IMG/VR virus record: IMGVR_UViG_3300005731_000265
Coordinates: 1 to 22,939 of that record
DNA length: 22,939 nt
DNA from: a virus
Strand: one strand, 5' to 3'
A model generated the notes under the pieces. The model saw only the letters and a list, made by a program, of their open reading frames with translations. It did no database searches and was not told the DNA's origin. Shown here piece by piece: positions 4,462 through 22,642 of this stretch; within the stretch, counting starts at the first letter, position 1, and each line of letters begins with the position of its first letter. The position numbers were made by a program, and so were the translations under genes.

Positions 4462-5981
4462 TGGGAATCTTTGATTTTCTGAAACGTCGTCCGAAAGACC
4501 AGGTGTCGTCCGGCACTCCCCATGCGGCGCGCAATGCATATGACGCGGCGACGACGCTCGCTCGTTACGGTGATCTTTCGAGCTCGTCGGGTTCTGCCGA
4601 TTACGAATTGGCGAACGCCCTTGTACCGTTGCGCAACAAGTCGCGCAATTTGTACCGCAACTCGTCAGCGCAGCGTCGCTACGTCCAGTTGATGCGTGTG
4701 AATATTTGCGGCGAGAACGGTTTCCAACTGCAATCACGCGTCCGCATGACCACAGACTCGATGAAACTCAACAGGTCGTTGAACAAGAGTGTTGAGCAAG
4801 AGTGGCGAGACTGGTGGGCGAAGCCGACAGCATGTGGTGAAATGAGTGGCGAGGACTTGACGAAACAGGCAATCGCGTCGCGCTGCAATGACGGCGAGGT
4901 GATCTGGGAAATCGTGTTCGGTCTTGAATATCCGAGCGGTATCGCGGTCAACCCGATCGAGGCCGATTTGCTTGACGAAACGTTGACGACAATCAACAAG
5001 TCGACAGGGAACCGAATCAAAATGGGCGTTGAGGTCACCAAAACGGGTCGGCCGGTTGCGTACCACTTCCTGCAAGAGCATCCCGGTGATCTGGCGGGTA
5101 TTTACGGACGCGAGCGTAACCGCCACCGTCGTGTGCCAGCGGAGCGCGTCATTCACATGTTCGACCGCTATCGTCCGGGACAGACGCGCGGCGAGCCACC
5201 CGCTGCGCCTGTGATCCACCCTGTGAAGATGTTGAACGGTTATCGCGAAGCCGAGACAATGAGTCGTCGTCTGCGCGCGGCGGTCATGGGCTTCTTTACC
5301 AAAAACTCGCCGACACCCGAGGCGATCAGCCAACTCGCGGATCGAGAAGACACTGCTGACGAACTGTTCGAGATGGACGTTGACCCTGGCCGGTTCAAAT
5401 CGCTACCGACAGGTTACGATTTCAAACAGTTCGACCCCGGCGGTGTGCAAGCCGACTATCAGGACTTCGAGGCACAGGTCAAGAAAGACCAAGCGATGGG
5501 TTACGGCATCTCGACGTTCTCGCACGGGATGGAAACAGCGGGCGTGAGTTATTCAACCGGTCGAACTGTGGCCATCGAAGATCGCGATTACTACAAAATG
5601 GAACAACGTCTGTTCATCGACGGGTTGTTCAAGAAGCTGTTCCGCATCTGGTTGCCACGTCGCATCCTCGAAACCGACAGCATGATACCGGCGTCACGCA
5701 TCGGGACGATCTTGGAAAAGGTCAAGTTCCGCGGTCGTGGGTGGGATTGGGTTGATCCGGCCAAAGACGTCAAGGCGAACACCGAAGCGTTGCGTACAAA
5801 TCAGACGTCGTTGGCACGTGTCGCTGCCCAACGCGGCATCGATCGGGACGAGTTGCTTGATGAAATACAGGAAGATCAACTCGCCGCTAAAGATCGGGGT
5901 TTGACCCTTGACTACGACGATGGTAACAATGTTGCACAAGAACCCGACGAAACGCAAGAAAGTGACGAAGATGACAACTGA
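4461..5981 (+). CDS. Portal protein, lambda family
   Basis: This 506-residue protein matches the lambda gpB-type portal family in length and pattern. It has an N-terminal arm with many Asn/Arg (RNKSRNLYRNSSAQRRYV at about 53-70) and the typical segment EWRDWWAKPTACGEMSGEDL followed by a DGEVIWEI strand. A proline-rich MFDRYRPGQTRGEPP loop and a VSYSTGRTVAIEDRDYY helix come later, with an acidic tail at the end. Twelve copies form the ring through which DNA enters and leaves the head. The start overlaps the preceding stop by one base (TAATG). The C-terminus overlaps the protease-capsid gene by 11 bases. No missing region was noticed. Confidence 0.92.
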   Translation: MGIFDFLKRRPKDQVSSGTPHAARNAYDAATTLARYGDLSSSSGSADYELANALVPLRNKSRNLYRNSSAQRRYVQLMRVNICGENGFQLQSRVRMTTDSMKLNRSLNKSVEQEWRDWWAKPTACGEMSGEDLTKQAIASRCNDGEVIWEIVFGLEYPSGIAVNPIEADLLDETLTTINKSTGNRIKMGVEVTKTGRPVAYHFLQEHPGDLAGIYGRERNRHRRVPAERVIHMFDRYRPGQTRGEPPAAPVIHPVKMLNGYREAETMSRRLRAAVMGFFTKNSPTPEAISQLADREDTADELFEMDVDPGRFKSLPTGYDFKQFDPGGVQADYQDFEAQVKKDQAMGYGISTFSHGMETAGVSYSTGRTVAIEDRDYYKMEQRLFIDGLFKKLFRIWLPRRILETDSMIPASRIGTILEKVKFRGRGWDWVDPAKDVKANTEALRTNQTSLARVAAQRGIDRDELLDEIQEDQLAAKDRGLTLDYDDGNNVAQEPDETQESDEDDN

Positions 5982-7773
5982 GACACGTGACGGCCACGTT
6001 GGCCAAATGCGCGCCACGGACGATGGCACTTTTGTTTTTCCGCTTTCGTCGGAAACGCCGTATCAACGTTGGAACGGCAAGGAAATTCTGGTTCACACCG
6101 ATGATGCGGTGAACCTCGACTTCCTCAATTCCGGAAATGCGCCTTTACTTGACACCCACAATCGGTGGGACGGTCTGAGCGCGCAAATCGGTGTTGTCAG
6201 GAAAGCGTGGTTGGACAAGAAACGTGTCTACGTCGAAGTGAAGTTTTCAGCGCGGCAGAACGCGCAGGAAATCAAACGCGATGTGGAAGAAGGAATCATT
6301 CGCAACGTGTCTGTGGGTTATGACATTGACCCTCGGGGTATCGTTCGCGATGATGATGCGGACGAGTACCGCGTTACTAAATGGACGCCCAAGGAAGCGT
6401 CTTTTGTTCCAATTCCCGCCGACGAAACGGTGGGCATGGGACGATCACACCAAAAAAGGGAGGCCGTTATGGCTGACGAAGTGAAAGATAAGCCCGAGCT
6501 TCCTGGGCTGGAAACGGAAGATCAAAAGGCACAGCGTCACGAGGAAGCCGTGACCGAAATCACCGCTTTGGCTCAGGCGCACAACCGCTCTGATCTGGCG
6601 AACGATTTCGTCAAGGGCGCGCTTCGCAACGGCGAAGTTCCGAATGTGGCCGTTTTCAAAGGCATCATGCGTGCCGAACTGCCGGAAGACACCCCGCTCG
6701 TGAACAACGACGTGGGTCTGACCGAGCGGGAAAGTCAGTCTTTCTCTGTGCGCAAATGGTTGGCGTCGCTGGAAAACCCGGACAACGCCACTGTTCGTGA
6801 AGATGCTGCGTTTGAAATCGAGGCCATGAACGAGGCGAGTCAGCACTCGCGTCACGGCGGTTTCATGTTGCCCGAAGAGGTGATGCGCAAATGGGGTGAT
6901 TTCACCGTTGACGGTGTACACTCTTCCCAGGTTCGTACGCTCGATACAGGCGGCAACCCGAATGTTCAGGACACCGATCATCTGGCGAACCGCTTCATCG
7001 ACAACTTGCGCAATCGTCTCGTGCTTGGTCGCTTGGGTCTGACGATGATCACCGGTTTGTCCGGCAACATCGAAATCCCGGGTGGTGACGCGAACACCGC
7101 GGCGGCGTGGCTTGGTTCTGAAGATGCAGATGCGGCGGAGAGCGAACCGACTTTCCGTAAGATTGATCTGAACATCCATGACATTGCGGTCTACACCGAC
7201 ATGACTCGCCGGATGCTCGTCCAGTCGACCATCGACATCGAAATGTATGTGCGGAACCAAATCCTCGACGCTATGGCCCAAGGTATTGATCTCGCGGGCT
7301 TCTACGGTACGGGTGCATCCGGTCAACCGACTGGCATCATCAACACCGCGGGTATCGGCTCTGTGACCTTTGCCTCTTCGACGCCTGATCGTGACGAACT
7401 GGTTGACATGCGCGCCGCTATTGCCGCCACCAACCAGACGCAGTCGCCGGCGTTCGTTATGAACACCGACATGGAAGCCGATCTGATGAAAGTACCGGTC
7501 AACGGTACGGGTTCCGATCGCTTCCTGGTCGACGGTACAACTGGTCGTTTGGAGCTCGGCAACAGTGTCGAAACAACCAACCAGTTCACCGCAGGTGACG
7601 TTCTGGCCGGTGTGTATTCGGATGCGATCATGGGCATGTGGGGTTCGTTGGAACTGGCACGTTCGACCGAGGCGAAATTCCTGTCCGCAGGTATCCGTCT
7701 CCGTGCGATCCAGTCCTTGGACTTCGGTGTGGGCCGCGTCGGTTCTTTCGTCCTCGGCAACGACGGCGTATAA
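5971..7773 (+). CDS. Fused prohead protease and HK97-fold major capsid protein
   Basis: This 600-residue protein joins two functions normally encoded by separate genes. Residues 1-166 are an HK97-type prohead protease (U35): the probable catalytic His is H63 (LLDTHNRW), the Ser is S114 (IRNVSVGYD), and a conserved acidic position lies near E142 (PKEASFVPIPAD). Residues from about 167 onward are a delta/scaffold region (KDKPELPGLETEDQ, EEAVTEITALAQ) and then the HK97-fold capsid body (FMLPEEVMRKW, YTDMTRRMLVQS, GTGASGQPTGI). The capsid part forms the icosahedral shell and the protease matures it. ATG 5971 lies inside the portal end; an in-frame ATG at 5908 is less likely. A strong internal start at 6469 probably also makes free capsid precursor (separate entry). 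Confidence 0.92.
   Translation: MTTETRDGHVGQMRATDDGTFVFPLSSETPYQRWNGKEILVHTDDAVNLDFLNSGNAPLLDTHNRWDGLSAQIGVVRKAWLDKKRVYVEVKFSARQNAQEIKRDVEEGIIRNVSVGYDIDPRGIVRDDDADEYRVTKWTPKEASFVPIPADETVGMGRSHQKREAVMADEVKDKPELPGLETEDQKAQRHEEAVTEITALAQAHNRSDLANDFVKGALRNGEVPNVAVFKGIMRAELPEDTPLVNNDVGLTERESQSFSVRKWLASLENPDNATVREDAAFEIEAMNEASQHSRHGGFMLPEEVMRKWGDFTVDGVHSSQVRTLDTGGNPNVQDTDHLANRFIDNLRNRLVLGRLGLTMITGLSGNIEIPGGDANTAAAWLGSEDADAAESEPTFRKIDLNIHDIAVYTDMTRRMLVQSTIDIEMYVRNQILDAMAQGIDLAGFYGTGASGQPTGIINTAGIGSVTFASSTPDRDELVDMRAAIAATNQTQSPAFVMNTDMEADLMKVPVNGTGSDRFLVDGTTGRLELGNSVETTNQFTAGDVLAGVYSDAIMGMWGSLELARSTEAKFLSAGIRLRAIQSLDFGVGRVGSFVLGNDGV
6469..7773 (+). CDS. Predicted internal product: major capsid protein precursor
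   Basis: Inside the protease-capsid fusion an ATG at 6469 is in frame and preceded by AGGGAGG (6457-6463) with 5 bases of spacing, one of the best Shine-Dalgarno sites in the window. It falls exactly where the protease domain ends. The 434-residue product starts MADEVKDK and is the size expected for an unfused HK97-type capsid precursor with its scaffold domain. Making many capsid subunits per protease would fit the stoichiometry of assembly. Nineteen bases around this start (6458-6476) differ at one position from those around the next gene's start (7824-7842), which supports a functional initiation site. This is a prediction from sequence; whether both forms exist is unknown. Confidence 0.6.
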   Translation: MADEVKDKPELPGLETEDQKAQRHEEAVTEITALAQAHNRSDLANDFVKGALRNGEVPNVAVFKGIMRAELPEDTPLVNNDVGLTERESQSFSVRKWLASLENPDNATVREDAAFEIEAMNEASQHSRHGGFMLPEEVMRKWGDFTVDGVHSSQVRTLDTGGNPNVQDTDHLANRFIDNLRNRLVLGRLGLTMITGLSGNIEIPGGDANTAAAWLGSEDADAAESEPTFRKIDLNIHDIAVYTDMTRRMLVQSTIDIEMYVRNQILDAMAQGIDLAGFYGTGASGQPTGIINTAGIGSVTFASSTPDRDELVDMRAAIAATNQTQSPAFVMNTDMEADLMKVPVNGTGSDRFLVDGTTGRLELGNSVETTNQFTAGDVLAGVYSDAIMGMWGSLELARSTEAKFLSAGIRLRAIQSLDFGVGRVGSFVLGNDGV

Positions 7774-8834: not shown

Positions 8835-9224
8835 ATGGCACGTTATAAAGGTAAAGAAGGCGATCTTAGCGTCGGCGGTACGTCATTGGGGGAGCGCATC
8901 AGTTTCGACATCGAAACGAGCGTCAACACCGCGGACGCATCCACACAGGGCAATGACTGGACCGACACCGACGGTTTGCAGTTGAGCGCGACAGCGAACG
9001 TCGAGGTCTTCTGGGATCCAGGTGATGATCAGCAAAACCTGCTCGTTCCTGGTGACACGGTCAATTGTATCTTCTACCTGGGTGGCAACACTACCGGGCT
9101 GGTTGAGATTTCCGGCAACTTCCTCGTCGAGACGAGAAGCGTGGCCGTTCCGGTTGGTGATCTGGTCAAGACGAACCTGACTCTCCGCAACAAAGGCGCC
9201 ATCACAGAAAGCACAATCGCATGA
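8835..9224 (+). CDS. Major tail (tube) protein
   Basis: This 129-residue protein is beta-rich with little helix (GKEGDLSVGGTSLGERISF, GLQLSATANVEVFW, TTGLVEISGNFLVETRSVAV, TNLTLRNKG). Size and pattern fit a siphophage tail tube subunit of the lambda gpV core type, here without the extra C-terminal immunoglobulin-like domain of lambda. Stacked rings of these subunits form the tail tube through which DNA passes. It has a good ribosome-binding site (GAGGTGA, 8824-8830). It directly precedes the tail assembly chaperone, which it overlaps by 4 bases, and the tape measure follows. This is the standard siphophage order. Confidence 0.82.
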   Translation: MARYKGKEGDLSVGGTSLGERISFDIETSVNTADASTQGNDWTDTDGLQLSATANVEVFWDPGDDQQNLLVPGDTVNCIFYLGGNTTGLVEISGNFLVETRSVAVPVGDLVKTNLTLRNKGAITESTIA

Positions 9225-9592
9225 CCAATTTCGCAGAACTGATTCGCAAGGAAGTGGCGCAAAGCGCGCAGGACCGTGGCACATGGACCGGCGAACTCGG
9301 TGGCACCACCGTGACCATCTACGCCAAGCCGCTTTGCCCCGCTGATCACGAATATGCTCGTAAAAAGGGCTATCCGGATTTCATGTCGAACATGCCGATG
9401 GGTGCGATGGTGCACCTGCTAGCGCGCAAGGCAGAGAGCGAAGCTGGTTCGCCTATTTTCCGTCCGAACGCTGACGTCCCGATCCTCAACAAGATGGGTC
9501 AGGACAAGATTGCCGAAATCTTCGGTGAGTTGTTCGCTGGTCAGATGGAAGGTGAGGACGACGCGGCTCATGAGGAACGCCTGGGAAACTAA
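9221..9592 (+). CDS. Tail assembly chaperone, zero-frame product (gpG-like)
   Basis: This 123-residue protein sits between tail tube and tape measure, the place of lambda gpG. It has a beta-hairpin (TWTGELGGTTVTIYAKPLC), a helix-rich middle and an acidic C-terminus (GEDDAAHEERLGN). Tail assembly chaperones bind the tape measure protein and bring tube subunits to it; they are not part of the virion. The gene ends in the slippery heptamer GGGAAAC immediately followed by TAA, so part of the ribosomes should shift to the -1 frame and make the longer form listed separately. ATG 9221 overlaps the tail tube stop (ATGA). Confidence 0.82.
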   Translation: MTNFAELIRKEVAQSAQDRGTWTGELGGTTVTIYAKPLCPADHEYARKKGYPDFMSNMPMGAMVHLLARKAESEAGSPIFRPNADVPILNKMGQDKIAEIFGELFAGQMEGEDDAAHEERLGN

Positions 9593-9738
9593 GGGCAGAC
9601 GAGGAATCCCTCGTCTGTTACCGTCTCGCAGAAGCGTTACACGAAGACATTGATGTTGTGCGTCATTGGTCATATGAAAAGATACGGGGATGGCTCGCGT
9701 ATTTTGAGATAAAAGCGGAGGAAAACGAGAATGCCTAA
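9221..9738 (+). CDS. Tail assembly chaperone, -1 frameshift product (gpGT-like)
   Basis: If ribosomes slip back one base on the heptamer at 9583-9589, reading continues from base 9589 in the -1 frame to a TAA at 9736-9738, which overlaps the tape measure start. This adds 49 residues, giving 172 in all. The added part begins LRADEESLVCYRLAEAL and contains HWSYEKIRGWLAYFEIK, a compact helical domain with a conserved-looking Trp/Tyr pattern and no internal stop. In lambda the same arrangement makes gpGT, whose T part binds tail tube subunits while G binds the tape measure. Without the frameshift the 138-base stretch before the tape measure would be noncoding, out of keeping with the dense packing elsewhere. 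Confidence 0.85.
9583..9617 (+). promoter_or_regulatory. Programmed -1 frameshift signal
   Basis: The heptamer G-GGA-AAC (9583-9589) is in the correct X-XXY-YYZ phase of the chaperone frame. It is followed at once by the TAA stop. After a 6-base spacer (9590-9595) comes a perfect 9-bp hairpin, CAGACGAGG (9596-9604) and CCTCGTCTG (9609-9617), with a 4-base loop. Heptamer, spacing and stem all match known -1 frameshift signals; lambda uses GGGAAAG at the same place. Confidence 0.87.
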
Positions 9739-11404
9739 AGGTGTCAATTTTCAGTTTACCGCTACGAACAAAGCCAAGGGTGCCATGCATGGCGTCCAGC
9801 GCGACCTTCAGGGCATTCAGCGACATACTCGCCAGACGATGCAGGTACAGCAGTCATGGAACCGTGGTCTGAACGCAAACCGACGCGCCGTACAGCAACT
9901 CGGATTTCAGGTGTCGGACTTCGCGATTCAGGTTTCCGGCGGTCAATCTGCTATGCTTGCTTTCGTGCAACAGGGTGGTCAAATCCTACAGTTCTTCGGA
10001 CCACTCGGTGCCACGGCGGCGGCGTTGCTTGCGATCTTCGGTTCGATGGCGATTGCGTTCGTCAAGTCGGGTCACGCGTTGTCGGAACTGATTCCGTTGA
10101 CCGGTGTGCTGGAAGAGGATTTCAGGGCGATTGGCACAGTCCTTGCGTCGGTGGGTGATGCCATGCTCACTGTCGCCAACCTGATCGTGAACAACCTCGA
10201 CACCATCGTCATCGCCATTGCAATTGTCGTCGGCTGGATTGGTACGAAATGGGTGATCGCAATGGTGGCGGCGAGTTCCGTCACGTCCGCGTTCATCGGC
10301 GTTCTACGTGCTGCCGCGGTATCGTATCATTTGGCAGGTGCGGGTGCAGCTGCGGCAACAGTCGCGACGTCCGTGTTCACGGGCGCCTTGCGCGTACTGC
10401 GCGCCGTGCTCATCTCACTCGGCCTACCCGCTCTGATCATTGCGGCAGCGATCCTTGTCGAGCGTTTCCTTGCTTTGTCACAAGCGGCCGGTGGATGGGG
10501 TAATGCGCTAGGACTGCTTGCCGACGTGGCGAAAGAGGTTTTTGAACGAATCGGGCTCGCCATGTCGTATATTCCTGTTGCGATGCGCGCCGCGGCGAAC
10601 AAAATGGCGGCGTGGTTTATCGAAAAACTTGCTGACATGTCGTTCCACTTCCTCGACTTCATGGCGGACGTGACGGACGGTTTCAACACTATCTTCGGTA
10701 CGAATCTGAAACCGATGGGTGGCGGCATGGACGTGTATATGCGCGGGGTTGCCTCGTCTTTCCGAGAAGCGGGTAGTGCTGCGTCGAAGACAGGGGATGA
10801 AATCAAGAAAGCGATGACCGCGCCGCTCACTTCGATCGAGAAGATCAGAGAGCTCGTCAAGGAAACGAAGATTGATCTGCGTGACCTATTTGGTGGCGGC
10901 ACGGAAGGTGACGGCGGGGATTCTGCAGCAAGTCGTGCGAAAAAGGAAGCGGACCGGATCGAGAAGATTTTCAAGGATATGCAAAAGTCGATTTCCGACA
11001 GCATGTTGTCCGGGTTCAAAGCGTTGTTTGACGGGTCGAAGTCGTTCGGTGACGCTGCTCGCGACATTCTTGGCAACATTCTCGACAACGTTATCGATCT
11101 TCTCATGACACCTATCTTCAACAGCATCGCAGGCGCCATTACCGGTGGCATTCTCGGTGGTCTGGGTGGCATCGCTTCCTTCGACGGCGGTGGTAGCACG
11201 GGTATTGGTGCTCGCGCCGGCGGTTTGGACGGCAAGGGCGGCAGACTCGCAATGGTACACCCCAACGAAACAGTGGTGGATCACACCAAGGGTCAGAGTA
11301 CAGGCGGTGTGACCATCAACATGAACATCTCAACACCTGATGTTCAGGGTTTCCGCCGGTCCAAGCGACAGATCGCGAACGAACTGAAAGCGGCGATGGG
11401 GTAA
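9731..11404 (+). CDS. Tape measure protein
   Basis: This 557-residue protein has an N-terminal helical part (AMHGVQRDLQGIQRHTRQ, FQVSDFAIQVSGGQSAMLAFVQQGGQILQFFGP in two adjacent runs), long hydrophobic segments at about 91-111 and 158-180 and beyond, and a central Ala-rich helical region. A lysine-rich segment (about 395-430) follows. The Gly-rich C-terminus begins FDGGGSTGIGARAGG and ends with VHPNETVVDH, typical of lambda gpH-type tape measures. These proteins set tail length, plug the tube and enter the host envelope during DNA delivery. At 557 residues it is short for the family, suggesting a short siphovirus tail. Its start overlaps the frameshift product and has a GGAGG ribosome-binding site (9718-9722). 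Confidence 0.92.
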   Translation: MPKGVNFQFTATNKAKGAMHGVQRDLQGIQRHTRQTMQVQQSWNRGLNANRRAVQQLGFQVSDFAIQVSGGQSAMLAFVQQGGQILQFFGPLGATAAALLAIFGSMAIAFVKSGHALSELIPLTGVLEEDFRAIGTVLASVGDAMLTVANLIVNNLDTIVIAIAIVVGWIGTKWVIAMVAASSVTSAFIGVLRAAAVSYHLAGAGAAAATVATSVFTGALRVLRAVLISLGLPALIIAAAILVERFLALSQAAGGWGNALGLLADVAKEVFERIGLAMSYIPVAMRAAANKMAAWFIEKLADMSFHFLDFMADVTDGFNTIFGTNLKPMGGGMDVYMRGVASSFREAGSAASKTGDEIKKAMTAPLTSIEKIRELVKETKIDLRDLFGGGTEGDGGDSAASRAKKEADRIEKIFKDMQKSISDSMLSGFKALFDGSKSFGDAARDILGNILDNVIDLLMTPIFNSIAGAITGGILGGLGGIASFDGGGSTGIGARAGGLDGKGGRLAMVHPNETVVDHTKGQSTGGVTINMNISTPDVQGFRRSKRQIANELKAAMG

Positions 11405-17903: not shown

Positions 17904-17915
17904 TTGGAGTCGGCC

Positions 17916-19064
17916 ATGACGCCGGAACAACGTGATGTGCTCGATATGAAAGAGCGGCAGGGTATGACGCGAAAACAGATCGCGTCGGAATTGGGTATCA
18001 GCGAGACTGCGGTGAAGCGCCGGTTGGAACGAGCTCGTACCGCCCGTGTCAGTAGTGACACCCGTCGCGAAAGCCTCGATCCGCATGTGGTGGACTATCT
18101 CAAGCGCGCCGGGTACAGCGACCTCAGCGGTGTGCATTCGGGATGGGTGCCGACACCAGCGGAGAACGAAGGTGGTAAGGAAGGTAACGTCTATTTCTAT
18201 CTCGGGAAAGACGAGCAGTACATCAAAGACCTCGGTGAAGCGATCAGCGACGCACTCGTCGACCACAAACCATTGAAGAAGATAAAGCGTCCGAAGGTCA
18301 CAGGTGAGGGGTATTGCAATTTCGTCCCGTTGGCTGATCTTCACCTTGGTGGCGAGTACGGCAATCCGGAATACGAGGCTGTGGTCACCGAAGTGATTGA
18401 CGACGTCGTATCGCGCTTGCCACCAGCTGAGAAGGCTGTGCTGGTTGAGCTAGGCGACCTGTTCGACGCAAACGACCATCTCGGCGTCACGCCCGCGAGC
18501 AAGAACAACTGCGACGTGATTCGGGAGAACCATCTCGCGACGACGCAACTCGCCGTGAAGATCATGAAACGGGCGATCTATCGTCTGGCGCAAACGCATC
18601 GCGAGGTCGAGGTCCATATGTGCCGCGGCAACCACGATGAGACAGCGTACATCAGTGTCATGGTTGCACTGGCCGAGCACTTCGAGCGCAGCGACCATGT
18701 GACCATTGTGGTCAGCGACGCCGACTATCGTGTTATTCCATGGGGCGAGTGCGCGGTGTTCCCGAACCACGGCGACAAGATCAAGTGGGGTGCGTTGAAA
18801 GACGTATGGGCTGATCAGTTCCCCGACGAGTGGGCAGCGGCAAAAATGCAACGCCTCATCTGGACCGCGCATTTCCACCATCGTCGCGCCGAAGAGATGA
18901 TCGGTGCCGAGGGTGAGCATTTCCGAACCACAGCGGCACCAAACAAATGGGCGCAACAGAAGGGTATGATCAGTCGTGGTGGGATGGTCGGCGTCACCCT
19001 GCACAAAGAGTGGGGCGAGACTGGACGCACCGTGTCGATGATGCGCCCGCGTCGAGTGGTTTAA
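17916..19064 (+). CDS. HTH-metallophosphoesterase fusion protein
   Basis: This 382-residue protein has an N-terminal helix-turn-helix (about 1-42; MTRKQIASELGISETAVKRR) of the sigma region 4/LuxR type. A linker follows, and then a calcineurin-like phosphoesterase domain. Metal-binding motifs are complete: D141 and H143 (LADLHLGG), GDLFD at 180-184, GNHD at 238-241, H285 (NHGDK) and H319/H321 (TAHFHH). Similar HTH-phosphoesterase proteins occur in other phages and the function is unsettled; nuclease or phosphatase activity is possible, and the HTH suggests DNA binding. It is the last rightward gene, after the tail genes, and meets the leftward operon. Start: ATG 17916 has GGAG 7 bases upstream; TTG 17904 is in frame but lacks support. 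Confidence 0.88.
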   Translation: MTPEQRDVLDMKERQGMTRKQIASELGISETAVKRRLERARTARVSSDTRRESLDPHVVDYLKRAGYSDLSGVHSGWVPTPAENEGGKEGNVYFYLGKDEQYIKDLGEAISDALVDHKPLKKIKRPKVTGEGYCNFVPLADLHLGGEYGNPEYEAVVTEVIDDVVSRLPPAEKAVLVELGDLFDANDHLGVTPASKNNCDVIRENHLATTQLAVKIMKRAIYRLAQTHREVEVHMCRGNHDETAYISVMVALAEHFERSDHVTIVVSDADYRVIPWGECAVFPNHGDKIKWGALKDVWADQFPDEWAAAKMQRLIWTAHFHHRRAEEMIGAEGEHFRTTAAPNKWAQQKGMISRGGMVGVTLHKEWGETGRTVSMMRPRRVV

Positions 19065-19911: not shown

Positions 19912-20455
19912 GTTTACCTCGCACGTGCTCGATTGCTTTGTTCGGGTCAGCGGTGCGCCAGTCCGGCCAATCACGCAGTTCATTCTTACCGTGCTGTTTG
20001 GCGAGAATGCGGTATACCGCTTCACGTGCCACCTCGTCAGCCGTTGGTGTGTGTGGTACCATTGGTGACATCGTGGGTGGGTTCTCGAAATTGGCGCGAA
20101 CCGCCCGCGTCAAACCATCAAGCGCGAGGATCACCACGTCGACCCACTCATTGGCGCGGGCGTTGGGGGTGGTGGGTGCTGCCATTGACTGCTCATATTC
20201 CAGATCCATGCGCGCCTTGGTCAGACGCTTCATGTCGTTGAGGGCGGGCGTCGCGTCATGGTTGATCAGTGGCATGTCAGCAAAGTCCAAGAACTCAGCA
20301 ACAGCACCTTCGAGCTCAGTCGGTTTGGTCGGACCGGCAATCTCAACCAACTCTTTCTTGATGTGGTCAATCACACTATGCGTGCGCTCATCCGGGCCGA
20401 AGTTGCAACGGCTTACGGCCACCTGCCGGGCCAAGTATTGTACAAAATCAGTCAT
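19904..20455 (-). CDS. MazZ/DUF550-type dATP/dGTP diphosphohydrolase
   Basis: This 183-residue protein matches the dATP/dGTP diphosphohydrolase family (DUF550, including phage MazZ) of the MazG fold, which removes pyrophosphate from purine deoxynucleoside triphosphates. Signatures are FGPDERTHSVIDHIKKELVEI (residues 19-27 and 28-39, with E35 and E38), NEWVDVVILALDG (E103, D106) and the C-terminal KNELRDWPDWRTADPNKAIE. The acidic pairs that bind metal are present. About 60 residues (41-101) lie between the two catalytic helices, more than I expect for the family, so there is an insertion. ATG 20455 overlaps the polymerase stop (ATGA). In some phages MazZ works with PurZ to make 2-aminoadenine genomes, but no PurZ is seen in this window. 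Confidence 0.85.
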   Translation of the reverse strand: MTDFVQYLARQVAVSRCNFGPDERTHSVIDHIKKELVEIAGPTKPTELEGAVAEFLDFADMPLINHDATPALNDMKRLTKARMDLEYEQSMAAPTTPNARANEWVDVVILALDGLTRAVRANFENPPTMSPMVPHTPTADEVAREAVYRILAKQHGKNELRDWPDWRTADPNKAIEHVRGKHD

Positions 20456-22395
20456 ATCACCAGTTTCCTCGCTTCTTCGATGTAATAAAGCCAATTCACA
20501 TTGTCCCACCGGAACAACGACGCGTCGTTCACCACTGTGACCATCCAGCCGACGTCGATACCGGTGTCGGAATATTCCGTTGCGTTGCGTTTCACCATGC
20601 ACTTGTTCAGCGGCGCACCGTCGGTCGACACATAGTAGCGCGACGTGTTCTGGATCTGCTCGTCGCCGTGATAGAGATAGCACGGGTGCCTGTTCGCAGA
20701 TTTGTTGACCTTCACCGACAACATGAAGTCGAACGGGTCACGGTGGTTCATTATGAATTCTTCAACCGGAGTCCCGTGTACCATCGCCGCCTCGGCAGCT
20801 TTACGCACGACGAGCATACTGTGATCCTGGTGCCACTGACGCTCACGGGTGTACAGATTATCGAGCGGCGTCTCATAGGCGTACGCACCGATACGCTTGA
20901 TACCGCCGTCGGTTTTTTCCGCCAGGTACGAATTCACGTCACGAATATGCATCGCCTTGTAACGCACCGATTCGAGTTCGAGGCCGGTGTGTTTTTCCCA
21001 CGCAGCGCAGGTTTCTTTCATGTAATCGACGAGGTGTTTCCGTATTTTGACGGTCAAACCGTCCGTGTTGATCTGGACCATCTGAATGTCGCCTTGGTCG
21101 ACAAAGTCGTGCGTCCGTACCAACCACTCGGCCAACATGCACAGGTAAAGTTGCCCGTTCACCGTGATCGACATAGTGTATTGCGGATCGAAAAACGGCG
21201 AGTATTTACTGTTGCTGTCGCCGTACACACCGTTCAGCGCCAGTTTCAACATAGCGTTTTCCGCCGTACCCTTACCATGCTGTTTCCGCATGTCGTATAC
21301 GGTCTCGTACACGTCACAGAACGTTTCGCTGAGATGTGCGGGGAACCACCGGTTGCTGATCGCAAGGTTCGGGTAATACGACGCCACGTCCCAATCCCAG
21401 ATTTCCCACTCGTCATCTTCACGTACCGTCACGCCGTGTAACGATCCGTGGATCCCGCCGGTGCCGAAGTCGTACTTGAACCCGTCGATCGTGGCGGACA
21501 GATCGTTAAACACACCTTTGGTTTCGATGCCGCCCGGATGCGCGTCGCGCCCTGTCTTCGGACCGAGCCTCACACCTTCCAGATACGTCTTCACGCGCTG
21601 AAACTCTGGGTGGTTGAACGTCACGCGCGGCGAGATGACGTCACGCAGCGCGACGTGGTCTCGGTGTGTCTGCAAGCGCTCTTTACGGCCGTTCGGGCGG
21701 TGATAGCACGGCACACCCTGTCTCTCCAATTCACGCTCGAAGAACTTCTTGCCGATCTTCGTGTCGTTCATGTTCAACACGTCACCCATGTCGGGGTATT
21801 TCTCGGCGAGCTCGTCACGGAACCGGATTTGATCGAGCGACGCGACATAGAAACGAAACGTCTCCGACACGTCGTGGCACATGTAGGCGATAATCTCGTC
21901 TTTCTGTTCCGATGTGGTTGGTTGGTCGGGCGGGTATGGCAGGTCGACGACGCTGTTCGATCGCATGTTGATTTCGAGTTTCTTCAACGATGTGCTGCGC
22001 GACATGTTGTCGAAGTGATGGATTTTGTAAAGATCACCCTGTGTGACTATCCGGTCGGACGGCCACAGGTTGTGTGCGAAGCGGTCATGACTGGTGATAA
22101 TCGCCGTGCCTTTGTCGTGCGCCGTCTGCGCATAGAACCCGCGCCCGTTGTCCCACTGCATCAGGTGTTGCATGACCGGCCAGTCGAAGCCCTCGTTGTT
22201 GTAGCCGAACAAACGCGCGCCGGCGTCACGCAGCTGGTACAGAAACGCGATCATCTCGACGGACTGGTTACGCCGATCTGACACCTCGAAGATGTAACGC
22301 GTTCGTGTCGCAGCGTGTGTCAGATCGACACAGAACAGGTCGAGGTACGTTTCGATGTCGTAAATCCAATCGGTGTGCGGGATGTCGTGTTTCAT
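20452..22395 (-). CDS. Family B DNA polymerase with 3'-5' exonuclease domain
   Basis: This 647-residue replicative polymerase has complete exonuclease motifs: exo I D13/E15 (YDIETY), exo II NNEGFD (66-71) and exo III YMCHD (171-175). Polymerase motifs follow: GGIHG (313-317), motif A DVASYYP (336-342), motif B KLALNGVYG (384-392) and motif C INTDGL (442-447). In motif C the first Asp of the usual DTD is Asn (N443), while the second, metal-binding D445 is kept. The short distances between motifs A, B and C leave no room for the TPR1 and TPR2 insertions of phi29-type enzymes, so protein priming is unlikely (inference). The start at 22395 overlaps the upstream stop (ATGA). It is the main replication gene of the leftward operon. 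Confidence 0.93.
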   Translation of the reverse strand: MKHDIPHTDWIYDIETYLDLFCVDLTHAATRTRYIFEVSDRRNQSVEMIAFLYQLRDAGARLFGYNNEGFDWPVMQHLMQWDNGRGFYAQTAHDKGTAIITSHDRFAHNLWPSDRIVTQGDLYKIHHFDNMSRSTSLKKLEINMRSNSVVDLPYPPDQPTTSEQKDEIIAYMCHDVSETFRFYVASLDQIRFRDELAEKYPDMGDVLNMNDTKIGKKFFERELERQGVPCYHRPNGRKERLQTHRDHVALRDVISPRVTFNHPEFQRVKTYLEGVRLGPKTGRDAHPGGIETKGVFNDLSATIDGFKYDFGTGGIHGSLHGVTVREDDEWEIWDWDVASYYPNLAISNRWFPAHLSETFCDVYETVYDMRKQHGKGTAENAMLKLALNGVYGDSNSKYSPFFDPQYTMSITVNGQLYLCMLAEWLVRTHDFVDQGDIQMVQINTDGLTVKIRKHLVDYMKETCAAWEKHTGLELESVRYKAMHIRDVNSYLAEKTDGGIKRIGAYAYETPLDNLYTRERQWHQDHSMLVVRKAAEAAMVHGTPVEEFIMNHRDPFDFMLSVKVNKSANRHPCYLYHGDEQIQNTSRYYVSTDGAPLNKCMVKRNATEYSDTGIDVGWMVTVVNDASLFRWDNVNWLYYIEEARKLVI

Positions 22396-22618: not shown

Positions 22619-22642
22619 GACACGGCGCCGCAACGCCGTGTC
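22619..22642 (-). other. Perfect GC-rich hairpin between two early genes
   Basis: GACACGGCG (22619-22627) and CGCCGTGTC (22634-22642) form a perfect 9-bp stem with a 6-base loop. On the transcribed strand it is followed by CCACCC, with no T run, so it is not a standard terminator. It lies in the 70-base gap between the Pro/Ala-rich gene and the 67-residue gene and could act as an mRNA processing or stabilising element. Confidence 0.5.

Follow-up and report, generated by a model that had tools for sequence, protein, structure and literature searches.

In long-tailed phages, the G/GT frameshift in the tail assembly chaperone gene is widely conserved (PMC5009743; the PRFect paper, PMC10885494). 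In phage lambda, -1 slippage determines the ratio of two tail assembly chaperones, the abundant G and the rare GT (PMC5009743). The lambda genes lie in the order tail tube, G, T and tape measure, with T in the -1 frame, an X XXY YYZ heptamer (GGGAAAG) near the G stop and the end of T overlapping the start of the tape measure gene (PMC5009743). The -1 sites of dnaX and IS elements carry an SD-like element upstream of the heptamer, a class proven to be stimulatory, and have AAG in the A site (PMC4066793). Reporter work in E. coli indicates that a shift from AAC to AAA is poorly tolerated in bacteria (PMC4066793). The record of Rhodobacter phage RcRhea (Cronusvirus) already joins both frames in one CDS (RCRHEA_12), and a paper on R. 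capsulatus phages notes the programmed frameshift that is usual in chaperone genes (PMC8601537). According to the paper describing the CRP-822 roseophage family, which does not mention frameshifting, only some subgroups have the chaperone (PMC12629253).

Here we analyzed an IMG/VR viral record of 22,939 bases, a single metagenomic contig from a marine phage (hereafter, the window), in which an initial annotation had placed a complete -1 frameshift cassette at the end of the tail assembly chaperone gene. The site resembles that of lambda in gene order, in the frame of T, in the type and place of the heptamer, and in the overlap of T with the tape measure gene. It differs in that its heptamer ends in AAC rather than AAG, its stop directly abuts the heptamer instead of lying several codons on, and its T runs for 49 codons from the slip rather than 144. 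Like the dnaX and IS sites, it has an SD-like element upstream; unlike them, it has AAC in the A site and serves tail assembly. We conclude that this is almost certainly a programmed -1 ribosomal frameshift site, which yields two tail assembly chaperones, G and GT, from one gene. Frameshifting of this kind was already known from phage lambda, and the window is a further case of it. Relative to the records and papers examined, the new element is the T frame of CRP-type roseophages and pelagiphages.

RESULTS

Organization of the tail module and the slip site

The morphogenesis module of the window is of the siphophage type and runs in the order terminase, lambda-type portal, protease–capsid fusion, head closure, tail terminator, tail tube, G/T, tape measure and GTA-like baseplate with a TIM-barrel hub. 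The best phage matches of the terminase are CRP-type roseophages (47%), which makes the CRP-822-type phages CRP-406, CRP-811, CRP-821 and CRP-831 the closest cultured relatives by this gene. The G/T gene sits between the major tail protein and tape measure genes, and the order tail tube, G/T, tape measure holds for the window and for almost every annotated relative inspected. Elsewhere in the module, a prohead serine protease (Peptidase_S78) and the major capsid protein are fused in one ORF (5971–7773); the major capsid genes of CRP roseophages are likewise unusually long.

The features of the slip site are collected in Table 1. The 3' end of G reads CTG GGA AAC TAA, and the initial annotation proved correct base for base in its in-phase GGGAAAC with an immediate TAA, its 6-base spacer and perfect 9-bp hairpin with a 4-base loop, and its -1 frame open for 49 codons up to a stop that overlaps the tape measure start (by 8 nt, with the ATG at 9731). 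The hairpin can be extended by two flanking G-U pairs. Within the window's genes (6,116 codons), there are just 14 in-phase XXXYYYZ heptamers, and the 22.9 kb as a whole contain only two perfect 9-bp hairpins (loop 3–8). As both are this rare, their joint occurrence at the end of G is not a matter of chance. The second of these hairpins (22619–22642) is located close to the end of the contig, within minus-strand ORFs that overlap each other. A minus-strand ORF that spans the cassette (9419–9826) was judged spurious on position.

Table 1. Coordinates of the G/T slip site and its neighbors in the window
Feature	Position	Strand	Description
Major tail (tube) protein	8835–9224	+	PHROG phrog_10528, major tail protein, 4.8e-7; just upstream of G
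G, tail assembly chaperone ORF	9221–9592	+	123 codons/aa; TAA at 9590–9592
SD-like GAGG	9572–9575	+	-11 to -8 from heptamer; candidate upstream stimulator
Slippery heptamer G GGA AAC	9583–9589	+	0-frame phase, as required for tandem -1 slippage
0-frame stop TAA	9590–9592	+	directly abuts heptamer
Spacer TAAGGG	9590–9595	+	6 nt, heptamer to hairpin
Hairpin	9596–9617	+	perfect 9 bp, 4-nt loop; 5' arm CAGACGAGG (9596–9604), loop AATC (9605–9608), 3' arm CCTCGTCTG (9609–9617); candidate downstream stimulator
T domain, -1 frame	9589–9738	+	49 aa (LRADEESL...IRGWLAYFEIKAEENENA); codons 9589–9735, stop TAA 9736–9738
Tape measure protein	9731–11404	+	557 aa; Pfam TMP_2, 1.9e-8; PHROG tape measure

We infer the following course of events at this site. 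Most ribosomes would translate G and stop at the TAA. A minority, holding GGA and AAC of G GGA AAC, would re-pair one base upstream, on GGG AAA, and go on in the -1 frame, producing GT, that is, G plus a 49-residue T domain. As in lambda, many copies of G would coat the tape measure protein and few copies of GT would recruit tail tube subunits, such that the rate of slippage would set the G:GT ratio. By this analogy, the tail tube protein encoded just upstream would be the expected partner of the T domain.

Conservation of the heptamer and stop

Two independent searches for relatives were run, one with G peptides (39 loci) and one with internal T peptides (54 loci); neither made use of the heptamer. 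Once duplicates had been removed, 51 distinct loci remained: the window, CRP-811, CRP-821 and 48 loci from environmental viruses, with 20 of the 48 found by the T search alone. To these we added nine cultured phages (CRP-406, RcRhea, R4C, HTVC026P, HTVC111P, HTVC112P, HTVC202P, phi3LM21 and DSL-LC06), for a total of 60 loci including the window. The 59 relatives thus comprise 48 environmental loci and 11 cultured phages. At the DNA level, the cassette had no match among phages.

In every one of the 59 relatives, an in-phase slippery heptamer lies at the G stop or one codon before it and is followed by a homologous T frame, which is complete in all except one locus cut by the contig end. A missing heptamer or an interrupted -1 frame in relatives had been named in advance as evidence against the cassette. 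Neither was found; all 59 keep both the heptamer and the open frame. The letters of the heptamer vary while its register is constant: the 51 loci have AAAAAAC (45), GGGAAAC (4), GGGAAAA (1) or AAAAAAA (1), and the nine further phages AAAAAAC, GGGAAAC or AAAAAAG. Across the 60 loci, 56 heptamers end in AAC, and two pelagiphages have AAG instead. The stop abuts the heptamer in 49 of the 51 loci and in eight of the nine further phages (57/60 overall), with one sense codon intervening in the other two loci and in phi3LM21. TAA, TGA and TAG are all in use.

Two groups of cultured phages illustrate the range of variation. The CRP-822-type roseophages have homologous G and T and share with the window the GAGG, the heptamer and the abutting TAA. 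They differ in using AAAAAAC rather than GGGAAAC and, in CRP-811 and CRP-821, in having no strong downstream structure. RcRhea has GGGAAAC abutting its stop (TGA), as in the window, and its G and T are homologous via intermediates. However, RcRhea is distant (about 26% identity to the intermediate query, locus L070; not found when the window's own protein was the query), and it has no GAGG at -11.

Elements flanking the heptamer

Among 28 divergent representatives, GAGG occurs at exactly the same offset from the heptamer in 20; the next commonest offset is seen in 4. The Glu codon at the GAGG site is GAG rather than GAA in a ratio of 21:4, compared to 117:189 elsewhere in G (Fisher p = 9e-6). 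Synonymous recoding of the whole segment gave only a weak SD enrichment (mean z -0.8), because Glu-Glu or Glu-Asp coding alone often gives an SD. In the window, the GAGG falls within the class of SD-like elements (GAGG, GGAG, AGGA and similar) located 6–17 nt before the motif and is a candidate stimulator. GAGG at such a spacing belongs to a class that stimulates -1 shifting experimentally in E. coli (PMC4066793). Another study found that an SD near the E site attenuates -1 shifting (PMC6321510), and hence the sign of any GAGG effect could go either way.

The downstream hairpin is less constant. In the window, the folding z-score is -2.75 against dinucleotide shuffles and -2.2 against synonymous recodings of T. 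The initial annotation had included the hairpin in the cassette. It is missing in the nearest relative (L002), and folding in CRP-811, CRP-821 and several others does not exceed the synonymous-recoding controls. A different stem, of 12 bp and starting 4 nt after the heptamer, is common to eight loci (L020, L022, L026, L031, L043, L070, L071 and L072). In these lineages, both sides have changed, in compensatory fashion, at 10 pairs of the structure, a count that is biased, as the sequences were partly chosen for stems. We rejected a single consensus structure for all lineages: the 12-bp stem forms 10–12 of its 12 pairs in just 8 of the 28 representatives.

Judging from these alignments, the constant elements of the site are the heptamer, the abutting stop (57/60) and the SD-like GAGG at -11 (20/28), and the downstream hairpin appears to be a lineage-specific extra. 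Comparison of the relatives, which had been proposed as a check on the prediction, bears out the heptamer and the T domain; a stem is strong in the window and some lineages and absent in others. The description of the cassette as complete was right about heptamer, stop and hairpin in the window itself and overlooked the upstream GAGG, which is more constant than the hairpin. Each of GAGG, abutting stop and hairpin may have a stimulatory role.

G resembles a tail assembly chaperone

The window's G had been taken for a tail assembly chaperone, and three lines of evidence support this: gene position, the PHROG matches of its relatives, and its top structural match. The G proteins of relatives match phrog_344 (tail assembly chaperone) in 26 of 31 cases. 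The window's G itself matches a PHROG family of unknown function, and that only weakly, and it has no match in Pfam or NCBIfam; a G sequence profile gave only weak, unrelated matches among PDB chains. An AlphaFold2 model of G (pLDDT 84.7) has as its best PDB match in Foldseek the HK97 tail assembly chaperone (2OB9; probability 0.99, E 0.02). The predicted fold is alike (TM 0.51–0.58), with a sequence identity of 9%. Matches of the G model among viral models include named tail assembly chaperones, that of RcRhea among them.

T evolves as a protein

In 134 pairs with 60–95% nucleotide identity, divergence of T at the three codon positions of the -1 frame was 0.177, 0.132 and 0.443. Between the window and L002, the corresponding numbers of differences are 14, 11 and 26. 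These patterns of substitution indicate that T evolves as a protein, under purifying selection in the -1 frame.

The T proteins of relatives match phrog_337 (tail protein) in 24 of 31 cases, and G as well as T members have matches to phrog_16513 (tail assembly chaperone). The Pfam family for lambda-type T, Phage_tail_T (PF06223), matched one of the 31 members at E 0.01, and not the window. Profile comparison of T with lambda T was not significant (hhalign probability 6.9%). The parallel drawn in the initial annotation with lambda G/GT therefore holds as a functional one and does not extend to significant homology of the T sequences. In searches of bacterial genomes with T peptides, no relative was confirmed and no prophage copies were found.

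Alternative readings of the site

One could suppose that no frameshifting occurs and that T is an independent small protein, translated after re-initiation or from its own start, as the annotation of the T region of phi3LM21 as a small ORF of its own (p41) and an in-frame ATG near T codon 7–10 in some relatives would suggest. However, in the window and 21 other distinct loci, the T frame contains no ATG, GTG or TTG from the stop upstream of T through its 20th codon, and hence only a non-standard start could give a separate T product in the window. Any such codon lies downstream of the conserved beginning of T, which abuts the heptamer, and under this scheme the heptamer would not have to be conserved. 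We consider a separate T very unlikely. Transcriptional rather than ribosomal slippage could also give a fused product, and many relatives have runs of A7 to A9 at the site, of a kind that can cause polymerase slippage. Yet the site reads GGGAAAC in the window, L002, L056, L090, RcRhea and R4C, with no homopolymer longer than three. This excludes polymerase slippage as a general explanation, and what is conserved is the register, not the length of the run; we regard this reading as even less probable than a separate T. The least credible reading, with a negligible chance of being right, is that the frame was disrupted by chance or by sequencing error. The source is a single metagenomic contig, but the arrangement is common to 59 relatives, including isolated cultured phages, and T is constrained at the protein level. 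This conservation already refutes an error.

A programmed -1 frameshift is thus the reading we retain, and a variant compatible with it concerns where the slip occurs. Because AAC sites are poorly tolerated in E. coli, the slip rate in the window may be low. The AAC in the A site could mean that low efficiency is wanted, that alphaproteobacterial ribosomes differ, or that the slip takes place with the stop in the A site. In the last case, the E- and P-site tRNAs would mainly re-pair during slow termination, and competition with release factor, not the hairpin, would set the ratio. The near-constant abutment of the stop is consistent with this variant, given that slip site and stop are 26 nt apart on average in annotated phage frameshifts (PMC10885494) and that the lambda stop lies further on. 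So are the poor A-site slippage at AAC-ending sites in E. coli (PMC4066793) and the report, from 70S extracts, of -1 slippage while a stop codon occupies the A site (PMC6321510). On the other hand, abutment may reflect merely a minimal G/T overlap or the conserved first Leu of T, and the identity of the stop is not conserved. We hold the stop-in-A-site variant to be a minority possibility. Equally tentative is our broader conjecture that phages of marine alphaproteobacteria share a family-wide variant of G/GT, in which an AAC heptamer abutting the stop, together with GAGG at a fixed distance, would set the ratio by termination-coupled slippage, with a hairpin that is optional and has been repeatedly replaced.

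Annotation of T in related phages

The initial annotation had anticipated that a gene caller would leave the T region empty, as is the case in CRP-406, CRP-811, CRP-821, CRP-831 and R4C; T is also unannotated in HTVC026P, HTVC202P and DSL-LC06. Phages of roseobacters and SAR11 therefore carry a T domain that is absent from most deposited annotations, and as a result a tail protein that is probably essential escapes family comparisons as well as proteomic searches. A reverse-strand "hypothetical protein" overlies the T frame in HTVC111P and HTVC112P (gp45, positions 1109–1261 of locus L109, and gp41, 1109–1255 of L108, respectively). These are probably spurious calls that hide the GT extension. 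In CRP-406 (locus L101, 4521–5004, minus strand), the "hypothetical protein" CRP406_31 is a G chaperone that ends in AAAAAAC-TAA and is followed by a T frame lacking annotation. As the CRP-406 G is clear, the published restriction of the chaperone to some subgroups may in part be an annotation gap. Given that AAC sites should be poor according to the E. coli data, a site that ends in AAC, abuts the stop and is preceded by an SD offers a clean test of slippage by ribosomes other than those of E. coli.

Two further ORFs of the window deserve mention. On the minus strand, a 647-aa ORF (20452–22395) has no Pfam match at 0.001 and contains, by eye, DNA polymerase B-like motifs (YDIET, DVASYYPNL). 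Directly after the tail module, a single ORF (17904–19064) combines a sigma-70 region 4-like DNA-binding domain with a calcineurin-like phosphoesterase domain, an unusual pairing.
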